A DNA stretch of 64,000 nt. It comes from Bremerella sp. P1. GTDB lineage: Bacteria; Planctomycetota; Planctomycetia; Pirellulales; Pirellulaceae. Position numbers and translations under genes: made by a program. How positions within the stretch are numbered: position 1 is the stretch's first letter; each line of letters begins with the position of its first letter. This document shows, one piece after another, positions 1 to 4,217 of this stretch. Below the pieces are notes generated by a model, which saw only the letters and a program-made list of their open reading frames with translations, was not told the DNA's origin and did not search any database. The stretch spans positions 930,001 to 994,000 of the forward strand of contig NZ_CP118164.1 of assembly GCF_028748185.1 (NCBI RefSeq), read 5' to 3'.

Positions 1-759
1 CTGACCGCGATGGGGGAACTCGTCAGTACGACGACGCACGAATTCAACAACGTGCTGATGGCCGTGATCAACTACGCCCGCATGGGGCTGCGTCATCAGG
101 ACGAGCAAACCCGCAACAACTGCTTTGAAAAGATCGCAGCCGCCGGGGACCGAGCCGCCAAGATCACGACCGGTGTGCTGGCGATGGCCAAGAACCGTGG
201 CGACCGCATGGAGCCAACCGACCTGTCGAAAATCGTCGACGACACCATCGTGCTGCTCGAGCGGGAACTTCGCAAATATCGCATCGAATTAGAATTTCAA
301 AACGAGAACGCTCCCCTGGCAATGGCCAACGGGAACCAGATTCAGCAGGTCCTGTTGAACCTGATGATCAATGCTCGCCAGGCGATGCCTCACGGCGGAC
401 GGCTGATCCTGAAGCTTTCGTACGACAAAGCGAATGACACGGTCGACCTGTTGGTACGCGATCACGGCACCGGCATTCCGACCGATCAACTGCCGCATAT
501 CTTTGATGCGTTCTACACGACCAAAACAGGTCCCGATGAAACGGGCAAAGGGGGAACCGGGATCGGTTTGGCCGCTTGCCGCGACATCATCGAAGCCCAC
601 CAAGGCAAGATCCGCGTGCAAAGCACCGTGGGGATGGGAACCGCCTTCACGATCCGAATTCCGGCCGCTGCCGTGAACCCTACGCCGACCTCAACTGTCT
701 CCAGCGGCGTACCGATCGCAGGCAGCGAAATGCTTCCCACGTCGCCTGTGAGGCACTAA
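1..759 (+). CDS. Sensor histidine kinase, C-terminal part (5' truncated by window edge)
   Basis: The frame is open from base 1, so the N-terminal sensor part lies outside the window. What remains is a transmitter module. An H-box-like segment with THEFNN near residue 15 carries the likely phospho-accepting histidine. The HATPase domain follows with its N-box (NQIQQVLLNLMINARQ), G1 box (DHGTGIP), F-box (IFDAFYTT) and G2 box (GKGGTGIGLAAC). The protein would autophosphorylate on His and pass the phosphate to a response regulator that is not seen here. The Pro/Ser/Thr-rich tail of about 30 residues after the kinase core is probably disordered. Function of the missing input domain is unknown. Confidence 0.93.
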   Translation: MTAMGELVSTTTHEFNNVLMAVINYARMGLRHQDEQTRNNCFEKIAAAGDRAAKITTGVLAMAKNRGDRMEPTDLSKIVDDTIVLLERELRKYRIELEFQNENAPLAMANGNQIQQVLLNLMINARQAMPHGGRLILKLSYDKANDTVDLLVRDHGTGIPTDQLPHIFDAFYTTKTGPDETGKGGTGIGLAACRDIIEAHQGKIRVQSTVGMGTAFTIRIPAAAVNPTPTSTVSSGVPIAGSEMLPTSPVRH

Positions 760-799
760 GCAAGTTTGATGCTTCATGGCAAGTTCATGAAATTCGGAC

Positions 800-827
800 T
801 TGTCACAAACGAAAACGCGCACATAAT
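800..827 (+). promoter_or_regulatory. Candidate sigma-70 promoter for the aroF leader
   Basis: A -35 element TTGTCA (800-805) and a -10 element CATAAT (822-827) each match the consensus at five of six positions and are 16 bases apart. Transcription would begin near 834, which is right at the start codon of the leader peptide (835), so that mRNA would be leaderless or nearly so. This fits the absence of a ribosome binding site before 835. Inferred from sequence only. Confidence 0.55.
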
Positions 828-834
828 AACCGAT

Positions 835-906
835 ATGAACAGCTGGCAGTTTACTTTTGGATTCTACTTTCCCTACTTTCCGAGTAGGGCCGAGGATTCT
901 GTGTAA
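835..906 (+). CDS. Putative aromatic-rich attenuation leader peptide upstream of aroF
   Basis: ATG at 835 opens a 23-codon frame ending in TAA at 904-906. Codons 4 to 15 include one Trp, five Phe and two Tyr (core WQFTFGFYFPYF), a composition far from chance and typical of leader peptides that sense charged aromatic tRNAs. Four of the five Phe codons are TTT. The frame lies just downstream of a good promoter and 29 bases before an intrinsic terminator, and the next gene makes DAHP, the first committed intermediate of Phe, Tyr and Trp. The stop codon sits in the segment that can pair with the terminator arm, as classical attenuation needs. Translation itself is not shown. Confidence 0.62.
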   Translation: MNSWQFTFGFYFPYFPSRAEDSV

Positions 907-934
907 ACTGCTAACTGCAAAACGCGAGAACTCC

Positions 935-972
935 AAAAGCCCTGAATCGGAAAGCGATTCAGGGCTTTTTTT
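935..972 (+). terminator. Intrinsic terminator, probable attenuator of aroF
   Basis: A perfect 14-base-pair stem (935-948 with 956-969), loop of seven bases, followed by a run of seven T (966-972). A competing pairing is possible: GATTC at 895-899 with GAATC at 944-948, extendable with mismatches to 895-904/939-948, which would block the stem. An upstream stem, 846-854 with 903-911, in turn uses the leader codons and enclosed hairpin 871-877/883-889. This is the arrangement of a ribosome-mediated attenuator. It could alternatively just end transcription of the upstream kinase gene. Confidence 0.8.
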
Positions 973-1034
973 GTTTCTATTGCCAACTTTAAGACCTGAC
1001 ACCTCACCAAACTAAAGCCTGGGAAGAGAAAGCA

Positions 1035-2060
1035 ATGATCATCGTTATGAAACGGGACGCCACCGGCGACATGATTCAACATGCCGCCGAAAAAGTCGAG
1101 AAATTAGGGCTCAAAGCCCACGTCATCGAAGGGACTGAAAGGACCGTGATCGCCGCAATTGGCGACAAACGCGAAGAAATGCGGGAGTCGTTCGAGACCG
1201 TCACAGGTGTCTCGAAGGTCGTACCGATCCTGGCCCCTTACAAGGTCGCCAGTCGCGAAGTGAAGCCAGAGCCAACGCTCGTCAAAGCCGGTAGCCTGGA
1301 AGTCGGCAACGGCAAGTGCGGCGTCATCGCGGGTCCCTGTAGCGTGGAAAGCGAAGACCAGATTGTCCAGACTGCCAAAGCAGTGAAAGCCGCAGGAGCC
1401 ACGGCGCTGCGTGGGGGAGCGTTCAAGCCACGCACGAGCCCTTATTCCTTCCAGGGTCTGAAAGAAGATGGCCTGAAGATGCTGGCCACAGCACGCGAAG
1501 AAACCGGCCTGGCCGTTGTCACGGAAGTGGTCGCGTCGGAAGACGTTAAGCTGGTTGCCAAGTATGCTGACGTATTGCAAATCGGTGCCCGCAACATGCA
1601 GAACTACCGCCTTTTAGAAGAGGTGGGCCGGGTCGATCGAGCCGTACTGCTCAAGCGTGGACCTTCCGCTACCATCGACGAACTGCTTCTGGCTGCCGAA
1701 TACATTCTCAACGAAGGCAACAGCCGCGTCATGCTGTGCGAACGCGGGATTCGCACCTTCGAGTCGCACACGCGGTTCACGCTTCCTCTGGCTACGGTGA
1801 CTTACCTTCATCAGAAGACGCACCTCCCGGTGGTCATCGATCCTAGCCACGGCACCGGCCATGCTTCCCTGGTCCCCGACATGTGCGTTGCCAGCGTGGC
1901 AATCGGCGCTGACGGCATCATCGTGGAAGTGCATCCCGAGCCTGACGAAGCCATGAGTGACGGCTATCAATCGCTTGATCTGCCTACCTTCGCGGAAACG
2001 ATGAAACGCTGCCGCGCGGTGGCAAATGCCGTGGGAATTCAGTGCGGTGCCGACGTGTAG
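1035..2060 (+). CDS. aroF: 3-deoxy-7-phosphoheptulonate (DAHP) synthase, AroF family with N-terminal regulatory domain
   Basis: Condenses phosphoenolpyruvate and erythrose 4-phosphate to DAHP, the first step of the shikimate pathway. At 341 residues it has the two-part build of the Thermotoga-like class: an N-terminal ferredoxin-like domain (about 1-75, beginning [11 protein letters not shown]) that usually mediates feedback inhibition by Tyr or Phe, then the TIM barrel. Visible active-site motifs are [43 protein letters not shown] and [11 protein letters not shown] weak GAGA-type ribosome site precedes ATG 1035. The gene stands alone behind the leader and terminator at 835-972, so it may be controlled twice, by attenuation and allosterically. 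Confidence 0.96.
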
Positions 2061-2102
2061 GCCAAGAGGTGTCCAGGCTTGTGGACGATGGAAGATCTCC
2101 GT

Positions 2103-4217
2103 TTAGTTGGAGATCTTCCTTTGCAGAGCGAACTGAAGCCGCTGATGATCGTCTTTCGACAGAAGGGCAATCAGGTGTTTACTGACGGGATCGTACTGCA
2201 AATCGCCGTAGCCTGTTTTACGAAGATCACTCAGTTCGCGTTTGGCATTGTTAATCAGTGCCGCAGCTTCCGACTTACCCAGCTGAAGCTTGCTCACATC
2301 GTAGAACTCCAGCCAAGGCATGATAGGCGTAGTACGCGAGCTGACCAGTTGAACCGTCGTGGCATTGATCGGTAGCGTTTCCAGTTTCCAGGCTTGGCAG
2401 AACTGCTCGAGCGCCTGCTGAGTGGTAACGCCGGGTGCCGTTAATGTCACCGGTGTGGCTGGACCGAGCTTGTTCATCGCCAAAGAGTCCCAATCGCACA
2501 AAATGGTCAGACCACTCTTCTTCTCAAGTTGATCGACCACTTTGTAAAACGGCGTCGGCACGACAATTTGCAGCTTCACATCTTTTTGCAGTGCCGGCGA
2601 TAGCTGATCGCTACGCAGGGTCAGGTCGAACAACTCTTTCGAGAAACTACTACGCTGCGGAAGTCCGCGAGCAATTCGTAGCTTTTCCAAAAAGACCACT
2701 GCTTTGAAGTGCGCCACTTCGCTTTGCGTGATCATGATCTTTCCTGGATCGATACGATAAAGGCCGTCCCCGCGGGATTGCTTCCAGGAAAGGGGCTCGA
2801 CCAGGTGTGTCATGAGGTAGGCGATGTCGGCAACTTCTTGCTGATTCGCGGCCAAGTCATCAACCAACAACTGGGCCACGCGTTTGTGGCCATCCAATGG
2901 CTGCGTGATACGTAGCCGGGCACTCTTATCGGTCGCTTGAATCTCGAGACCGAACGGACGGACAGCCGAATTCAAAATACCTTCGATCGATGTCTGCGTC
3001 TGTTTGACGGAGATGGGCGTCTTGGCATTGATGTCGGCCGATGCCAACGCGATTGGATCGAGCGTGACCGGCACGGTGCTCATCTGCGTCACAAAGGAAG
3101 CAAACTCATTGAGCGGCATGTTGTCGAATTCAATCCGCACAATCGGATCGCCCAGCCGTTGAGCGACATCCACCTCCGGAATCGGAGGCACAAGTTCCGG
3201 TGCCGTCGAAACATCGACTTGCGGCATGGCTGGCATAGCATCCGCAGGTCCAGGATTGGTACTGGCGGATTGCTCGAAGGCTTCTGAATCGAAAACAGGG
3301 AACGCCTCGCCAAACACTTCATACAGTGGGTCGTCCTTGAGTTCCAGAATCGAAGGCTTGGCGTCGGCGACCTTCGGCTTGCCATCGTCAGTGGTCGGCA
3401 TCTCTTCCGTCGGATTTCCGGCAGGCGTTGTCCCTGGAGGATCGTCGAACAGGAACGGATTCTCTTCGCTGGGCATCATCGGCTCAGTCGACTCTTCGGC
3501 AGTTGCCTCCGGTAAGGTCTTCTCTTCTGCTGGAGACTCCTCGGTGGCAGGTTCCGACTCGACCGGTTCTTTGGCTGGTTCTTCCGGCGTGGGCTGCGGC
3601 GTTTCTTCGACAGGAGTCGGTTCTTTCTCGGCAGGTGGTTCTTCCTCTGCCGGCGACTCGAACTGGGCTACCTGGGTCGGTTCTGGCTCTTCCGGAACGA
3701 CAGGCGCCGGTTGATCATTTCCCGAAAAGACGGCGTACCCAATTACCGCGAATGTTACGATGGCCATGACCGACGTCCCGCCGATCAGGGCCATATTCCG
3801 CATCTTGCTGACCGAAGCACTATCGGAAAAACGGTTGACCTCGGCCGTTGCTGCTTCGGCAGGCTCGGCACTGGGCGAAGTCGGTACCGTTTCTTCGGCT
3901 GCCGGCGAACCGGCTAACATCTCGTCAAGATTATCGAATGCCGCATCCGAGCTAGAAACCTCAGTCGGGGTTGGCTCAGGTGTCGGCGTCTCTGGTGCGG
4001 GAGTTTCCGGAGCAGGAGCTTCTGGCTGAGATGCAATCGGCGCAGCGACAGGTGCGGCCTTCGACTTCGACTTATCCGTCGATCCAGGCGAATCGGGCGC
4101 GGCGATCTCGACCATACTTCCACACTTCGGACAGTTGACAATCTGACCGATGAGCGAACGGCTGGTCACCTTCAGGCGAGCAGCACAGGTCGGGCATTGA
4201 ACTCGGAATAGGGTCAC
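2103..4217 (-). CDS. Zinc-ribbon membrane protein with C-terminal STN-like modules
   Basis: Function unknown. The start is a zinc ribbon (C8, C11, C29, C32), followed by an acidic Pro-rich stretch, one transmembrane helix around residues 145-167 (ALIGGTSVMAIVTFAVIGYA), a long Pro/Glu/Ser/Thr linker, and an exported C-terminal half. That half holds segments like the short N-terminal domain of secretins and TonB receptors, for example IRIEFDNMPLNEFASF-type sequence near 370 and a second near 560. GTG 4217 is taken as start because AAGAG lies before it and the ribbon then begins at residue 5; TTG 4235 in the same frame is the alternative. It follows the pseudokinase gene by about 25 bases, so the two are probably one operon. 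Confidence 0.82.
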   Translation of the reverse strand: MTLFRVQCPTCAARLKVTSRSLIGQIVNCPKCGSMVEIAAPDSPGSTDKSKSKAAPVAAPIASQPEAPAPETPAPETPTPEPTPTEVSSSDAAFDNLDEMLAGSPAAEETVPTSPSAEPAEAATAEVNRFSDSASVSKMRNMALIGGTSVMAIVTFAVIGYAVFSGNDQPAPVVPEEPEPTQVAQFESPAEEEPPAEKEPTPVEETPQPTPEEPAKEPVESEPATEESPAEEKTLPEATAEESTEPMMPSEENPFLFDDPPGTTPAGNPTEEMPTTDDGKPKVADAKPSILELKDDPLYEVFGEAFPVFDSEAFEQSASTNPGPADAMPAMPQVDVSTAPELVPPIPEVDVAQRLGDPIVRIEFDNMPLNEFASFVTQMSTVPVTLDPIALASADINAKTPISVKQTQTSIEGILNSAVRPFGLEIQATDKSARLRITQPLDGHKRVAQLLVDDLAANQQEVADIAYLMTHLVEPLSWKQSRGDGLYRIDPGKIMITQSEVAHFKAVVFLEKLRIARGLPQRSSFSKELFDLTLRSDQLSPALQKDVKLQIVVPTPFYKVVDQLEKKSGLTILCDWDSLAMNKLGPATPVTLTAPGVTTQQALEQFCQAWKLETLPINATTVQLVSSRTTPIMPWLEFYDVSKLQLGKSEAAALINNAKRELSDLRKTGYGDLQYDPVSKHLIALLSKDDHQRLQFALQRKISN

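Follow-up and report, generated by a model that had tools for sequence, protein, structure and literature searches.

What controls aroF, the gene at the entry to the shikimate pathway, in the planctomycete Bremerella sp. P1? The window considered here is a 64,000-nucleotide stretch of DNA from this bacterium (its genome is a single contig of 6.96 Mb); positions are counted from its first base, and all features described lie on the forward strand. An earlier note on this DNA, made from the sequence alone, had called the gene a DAHP synthase gene and had read the bases ahead of it as an attenuator that works through a ribosome translating aromatic codons. The gene call is borne out by domain matches at 1035-2060 (PF18152 plus PF00793, and TIGR01361), which describe a DAHP synthase with a ferredoxin-like domain, the enzyme of the first step of the pathway. 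From the domain make-up, we take it to be of the type I-beta class. The attenuator itself is also very probably real: we put the probability that aroF is controlled by ribosome-mediated transcription attenuation, through a leader reading frame at 835-906 and an intrinsic terminator at 935-972, at roughly 0.88. The basis is the open reading frame, its control codons, the terminator, a covarying antiterminator, and the spacing between promoter and ATG, that is, sequence comparison and computed folding, from which we infer the start site, translation, stalling, and read-through of the leader.

The leader reading frame and its reach

Upstream of aroF lies the frame that the earlier note had pointed out, 23 codons and a TAA stop at 835-906, encoding the peptide MNSWQFTFGFYFPYFPSRAEDSV. 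Eight aromatic codons crowd codons 4 to 15: Trp at codon 4, Phe at codons 6, 8, 10, 12, and 15, and Tyr at codons 11 and 14. From the sequence and from per-codon folding, these (W4, F6, F8, F10, Y11, F12, Y14, and F15, at 844-879) are the predicted control codons. The cluster exceeds what chance gives for its sequence; eight or more aromatics in 14 codons never arose in 2,000 shuffles of the 400 nt upstream of aroF, and seven or more arose once (1/2,000). Profile searches with Pfam and NCBIfam placed the leader peptide in no family.

Do relatives keep such a frame, as the attenuator proposal would have it? All nine genomes of the genus, this one included, have both the aroF orthologue and the leader. 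The genus consensus is M-N-[NS]-W-Q-F-[TY]-F-G-[FY]-[FY]-[FY]-[PST]-Y-F-P-S-R-A-E-D, with an extra N in two sequences, and the control codons differ between genomes by exchanges of Phe and Tyr and by synonymous substitutions. In the family, Pirellulaceae, 119 genomes were searched and 114 had some match; the 79 orthologous upstream regions used (at least 68% identity) comprise nine from the genus and 70 others, among them four (L024, L035, L043, and L078, in our numbering of loci) that were kept even though the match does not start with ATG, GTG, or TTG. An open reading frame with at least five aromatics in 14 codons precedes aroF in 57/79 of these, compared with 56/790 dinucleotide shuffles (7%) and 4/79 on the reverse strand. 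At a threshold of at least seven aromatics, the counts are 36/79, 0/790, and 1/79, respectively. Because each leader was picked as the most aromatic frame of its region, the shuffles were handled identically.

The terminator travels with the frame. A leader (here at least four aromatics) with a terminator no more than 110 nt downstream occurs at 58 of the 79 family loci, which represent 32 genera, and the distance from leader stop to terminator stem has a median of 29 nt and a range of 21 to 53 nt. At three of the other 21 loci a terminator is present but no such leader, and at the remaining 18 no terminator was detected. Between genera, little of the peptide is conserved beyond its aromatic richness and a Gly/Arg-rich end, as the examples MRNYFYTYFWFFFSLRGRRAGGGI and MTTLRSYYFYFWFFFTLAGRGEEGAM illustrate. 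Phe, Tyr, and Trp are all encoded in the leaders of 26/32 genera, which suits a DAHP synthase because the enzyme feeds the synthesis of all three. In five genera (g12, g37, g38, g39, and g46, loci L067, L071, L075, and L079-L087), neither an aromatic leader nor a terminator was detected at any sampled orthologue of aroF.

Outside the family, the picture thins with distance. A phylum sample of 244 genomes (family included) gave 177 with a DAHP synthase match at an E value of 1e-80 or better. From the top of the match list, 60 outside-family loci were picked by hand, not at random, and at least five aromatics were found at 32/60, several of these being weak calls; the fraction is 3/3 for the same order and 11/12 for other families of the same class, and one locus with only 61 nt of upstream sequence (L185) was scored as a miss. 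Among named loci from many phyla, 23 of the best 80 (of at least 594) pass the same threshold, a number to be read knowing that some loci with exactly five aromatics may do so by chance and that at least four of the 80 (L088, L089, L090, and L107) are genomes counted elsewhere too. The clearest leaders of non-planctomycetes among these 80 belong to Geomonas propionica, a Geobacteraceae, a Calditrichota, an Acidobacteriota, and a Chloroflexi genome. Aromatic leader frames before DAHP synthase were seen at L106, L108, L115, L159, and L160, from Geobacteraceae, Calditrichota, Acidobacteriota, and Chloroflexi. With a terminator finder slightly more permissive than the one used for the family, the Geobacteraceae locus L115 is the only clear non-planctomycete case that combines a nearby terminator with strong pairing (-20.3 kcal/mol); at the others, the terminator is distant or absent or the pairing is weak.

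Where would the leader transcript begin? The promoter that the earlier note had placed upstream of the leader is of the sigma-70 type, with TTGTCA at 800-805, CATAAT at 822-827, and a spacer of 16 (800-827 overall), and it has 10/12 consensus matches. On its own this match is weak, since shuffles already give 0.5 promoter-like sites on average and one was found here; the site is seen, with small changes, in 9/9 same-genus genomes. At 43/58 leader loci the in-frame ATG sits only 6 to 7 nt past a -10 box (accompanied by a -35 box), and for this reason the leader mRNA is probably leaderless. A gap of 5 to 8 nt is found in 26/32 genera and in 96/2,900 shuffles; no promoter was found at 6/58 loci, and the gap is longer at 9/58. 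The usual distance from a -10 box to the start would put the 5' end of the transcript at the ATG or one base before. In the window, transcription is expected to start at 834-835, i.e., at the leader ATG, and the frame is probably translated from a leaderless mRNA. Leaderless leader peptides are on record elsewhere, namely, trpL of Sinorhizobium meliloti (PMC7298713) and trpL, leuL, and ilvL of Streptomyces lividans (PMC8079986). These are described as likewise lying at the extreme 5' end of an attenuated transcript, but they come from other phyla and concern other amino acids than the aroF leader does, and their 5' ends have been mapped, whereas the start of the aroF leader is deduced from -10 spacing.

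Terminator, antiterminator, and ribosome position

The strong terminator that the earlier note had described holds up well. At 935-972, a stem of 15 pairs (935-949/955-969) is followed by a T-rich tail (-24.3 kcal/mol, z -7.2) and ends 62 nt before the aroF start; it is kept in 100% of pair cells in 9/9 genus members. Its 5' arm and loop are also the predicted partner of the antiterminator. The RNA from 815 to 985 as a whole folds with a z of -7.9, and two further hairpins come from genus comparison and folding. The stem 846-854/903-911, proposed earlier and recovered here (P1), encloses the antiterminator strand and may sequester it or act as a pause hairpin. Compared within the genus only, P1 has 85.2% of cells paired, and two sequences carry changes at both bases of one pair. 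Inside it, a small hairpin (871-877 with 883-889; 92.1% of cells paired in the genus, with one more pair added in the 815-985 fold) would hide the antiterminator strand in ribosome-free RNA. The joint covariation score of P1, the inner hairpin, and the terminator, for the genus only, is 0.069, no higher than the 0.071 of a version slid by +1; the same structures have 93.8% of cells paired versus 56.7% when slid.

Which segment, then, competes with the terminator? The earlier note had chosen 895-904, around the leader stop, as the partner of 939-948. That pairing was rejected: 8/10 pairs are possible, two never form, and 76.7% of cells are paired in the genus, versus 98.4% for an alternative further upstream. 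The alternative strand, here called X, is 876-890, in which 876-883 pairs with 947-954 and 885-890 with 939-944, as folding and covariation indicate. X corresponds to leader codons 14 to 19 and pairs with the 5' arm and loop of the terminator. RNA 876-954 by itself folds as the antiterminator (-32.3 kcal/mol, z -6.3), while RNA 835-954 folds into P1 and the inner hairpin, which hide 876-890. Window bases 874-896 are invariant across the nine genus genomes, unlike the control codons. Of the three stems that the earlier note had proposed to test for compensatory changes, P1 offers a single pair, 895-904/939-948 is the pairing rejected above, and the terminator pairs are kept throughout the genus.

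Within the nine genus genomes, no covariation of the antiterminator pairs was found. Between lineages, X and the terminator 5' arm do covary. When X was paired with its own terminator partner or with partners swapped in from other loci, the energies were -18.5 versus -16.1 kcal/mol for the 32 family genera, -18.5 versus -14.0 kcal/mol for 27 loci outside the family, and -18.6 versus -14.9 kcal/mol for all 59 loci, each difference being reached in 0/20,000 permutations. As controls, a shuffled X gained only 0.2 to 0.5 kcal/mol, and the 57 nt preceding it gained nothing. No more than 5/32 genera (median rank, 8.5), 4/27 outside loci, and 7/59 loci overall have their own strand as the top partner, since a GGGC/GCCC core common to many lineages makes foreign partners fair as well. 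At 35/58 family loci, 12 or 13 nt separate the end of the aligned strand from the leader stop, and the strand's position is more variable in relatives from the order and class than in the family.

How would the ribosome choose between the two folds? Folding was computed codon by codon at 25 C, with a masked ribosome footprint of 31 nt that was our own choice. In the window, the terminator 5' arm is paired upstream at 0.59 with the A site at codons 2 to 11, 0.51 at codon 12, 0.39 at codon 13, and about 0.2 at codons 14 to 19; between codon 20 and the stop it recovers to 0.46-0.51, and in ribosome-free RNA it is 0.25. Because of the recovery from codon 20 on, our probability for the mechanism was lowered from 0.9 to 0.88. 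With this footprint, stalls at W4 to F12 leave the antiterminator open, and stalls at Y14 and F15 do not. The low point at codons 14 to 19 also differs from the earlier idea that a ribosome at the stop covers the antiterminator segment, which is not borne out because X sits inside the leader frame, upstream of the stop. Across 31 genera, pairing of the 5' arm averages 0.62 when an aromatic codon is in the A site versus 0.44 in the codons that follow, and it is higher on the aromatic codons in 27/31 genera (Wilcoxon p, 1e-5) and reversed in 4/31. By these models, stalling on the early aromatic codons would open the antiterminator, and a ribosome that moves on would mostly close it for a while. 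In the full-length RNA at equilibrium, the terminator is preferred at every ribosome position in 6/6 loci tried, and the switch must therefore be kinetic. In three of these six (L066, L059, and L041), the ribosome-free RNA has an antiterminator value of 0.62 to 0.75.

A proposed mechanism and its rivals

The sequence of events would run as follows. Transcription would start at the leader ATG or one base before it, allowing a ribosome to load at the very 5' end of the RNA. A shortage of an aromatic aminoacyl-tRNA would stall the ribosome at codons 4 to 12, where it would cover the 5' strands of both P1 and the inner hairpin and leave 876-890 free. Once 939-954 has been made, the free strand would pair with it and tie up the terminator's 5' arm, and RNA polymerase would continue into aroF. 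When aromatics are plentiful, the ribosome would move on and cover 876-890 while the terminator is being synthesized, and transcription would stop at about 970. In the absence of translation, P1 and the inner hairpin would hide 876-890, and the terminator would form as well. Judged by the codons and the folding models, the attenuator very likely senses charged tRNA-Phe and tRNA-Tyr and probably tRNA-Trp.

Could the same parts have a duller explanation? One is that the terminator merely ends the transcript of an upstream histidine kinase, with the short frame incidental and aroF under another promoter. The order of the genes would allow it, as a kinase-like frame ends at 759 and the terminator stem (935-969) comes after, but the kinase is separated from the leader by a promoter-like site, the spacing between leader and terminator is kept in 32 genera, and the terminator 5' arm covaries with the leader frame, all of which leaves this account hardly credible. 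It is nearly as improbable that the RNA is controlled by a bound ligand or protein (riboswitch, T-box, or TRAP-like) and that the frame is a passenger. The strong folding of the leader is what such an RNA would display; yet what is kept across genera is the aromatic reading frame and not an RNA core, and the leaders of leuA and of citramalate synthase in the genus (described below) carry Leu and Ile/Val codons instead. The four Rfam matches in window positions 1 to 3000 are also neither T-boxes nor riboswitches, and all score below gathering.

Is the peptide itself the point of the leader? A product active in trans, besides or instead of attenuation, has a precedent in peTrpL of S. meliloti, a leader peptide made from a small leaderless frame and described as acting in trans (PMC7298713). 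The aroF leader peptide is unconserved between genera except for its aromatic richness and Gly/Arg-rich end, however, and within the genus the DNA of that end does not vary where it pairs with the terminator; we regard a trans-acting peptide as unlikely. A role of the stalled ribosome in translation of aroF or in Rho-dependent termination, rather than intrinsic termination, would fit the few relatives, e.g., L170, L180, and L207, in which an aromatic leader was found but no terminator was detected. It squares poorly with a strong intrinsic terminator 62 nt before aroF in 9/9 genus members, the 5' arm of which is the very partner of the antiterminator, and we hold it to be very improbable.

Leaders at other genes and their meaning

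Is aroF alone in this? At leuA, all nine genus loci (L246-L254) carry a Leu-rich leader and a terminator; in Bremerella sp. P1 itself, the leader region lies at 1192-1320 of locus L250, and the leader is MNQNLLLLQLLLITSGC. In the five leuA loci inspected, the end of the leader pairs with the terminator 5' arm across the stop codon. In the family (L281-L309), a Leu leader followed by a terminator was counted in 23/30 loci, without a shuffle control. Citramalate synthase (TIGR00977) has a terminator at 8/8 genus loci (L255-L262; own genome, L258 and L322), and a frame rich in Ile, Val, and Thr precedes it in the four that were inspected; in the family, an Ile/Val leader and then a terminator were counted in 11/30, again without a shuffle control and with 2/30 scored as misses because they lacked usable upstream sequence. 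Aromatic attenuators at trpE and prephenate dehydratase were sought in the genus and rejected: no frame with at least five aromatics and no terminator was found in the 700 nt upstream of the match at 8/8 and 9/9 loci, respectively. Ahead of ilvB (L263-L271), most of the nine genus loci have a short frame, ..PILIVWTNVP or similar, about 130 to 220 nt upstream, which is possibly another leader peptide; no terminator was detected near it.

The enterobacterial trp and pheA operons are controlled by leader-peptide attenuators, and the aroF leader shares their logic: a short frame with codons for products of the pathway, mutually exclusive antiterminator and terminator, and the position of the ribosome as signal. 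Unlike those, the planctomycete leader targets DAHP synthase and encodes all three aromatics. Its antiterminator strand is part of the leader frame itself, made up of distal codons ahead of the stop, whereas that of trp follows the leader stop. Membership in the Rfam family Phe_leader (RF01859) was considered and rejected, as 834-975 scores 19.2 bits, below the gathering score of 55 (E value, 6.6).

What is known of similar leaders elsewhere? The nearest published relative found for the same gene is the uORFC-13-1 motif of Acholeplasma, a predicted upstream frame and terminator ahead of aroF proposed to respond to the supply of aromatics (PMC8632094). Compared by its description, it is like the planctomycete leader in combining frame and terminator at aroF; it is reported from Acholeplasma and unassigned environmental sequences only, with at least one Phe codon, and the section on it names neither Trp nor Tyr codons nor any planctomycete. 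The same paper cites a hypothesis of aroF attenuation in Escherichia coli. Leader peptides have been predicted at trp, leu, ilv, and cys genes in Actinobacteria (PMC1262725) and at hisS in Firmicutes (PMC2965389), which share the class of mechanism at genes other than aroF; neither paper has the string "Planctomyc" in its main text. In Planctomycetes, short leader genes near start codons have been described and explained by re-initiation (PMC4833913), in a paper whose main text does not contain "aroF." The earlier note knew of no described planctomycete case, and among the matches listed from titles and abstract beginnings of open-licence PubMed Central papers, a scope that leaves aside the 2010 Lopatovskaya survey cited in PMC4833913, none describes a leader-peptide attenuator in a planctomycete.

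How far might the finding extend? Shikimate entry may be under a leaderless, three-aromatic leader with an in-frame antiterminator across much of the Planctomycetota and in some Geobacteraceae, Acidobacteriota, Calditrichota, and Chloroflexota, and together with the leuA and citramalate synthase leaders, this would make up an attenuation regulon that needs transcription-translation coupling; we give this broader proposal about even odds. Such a regulon would be genomic evidence for coupling, since attenuation works only with ribosomes that closely follow RNA polymerase. If the attenuator reading is right, leader-peptide attenuation is extended to a phylum for which the literature searched gave no description, the enzyme at the entry of the shikimate pathway comes under control that senses all three aromatic end products, and a geometry is added in which the leader's own distal codons serve as the antiterminator. 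The planctomycete cell plan is debated, and spatially segregated transcription and translation have been reported for Gemmata obscuriglobus (Gottshall 2014, as cited in PMC5394234 and PMC6212462). The presence or absence of these leaders in Gemmata itself would be telling for coupling, and the attenuators would make transcription-translation coupling in the Planctomycetota directly testable.
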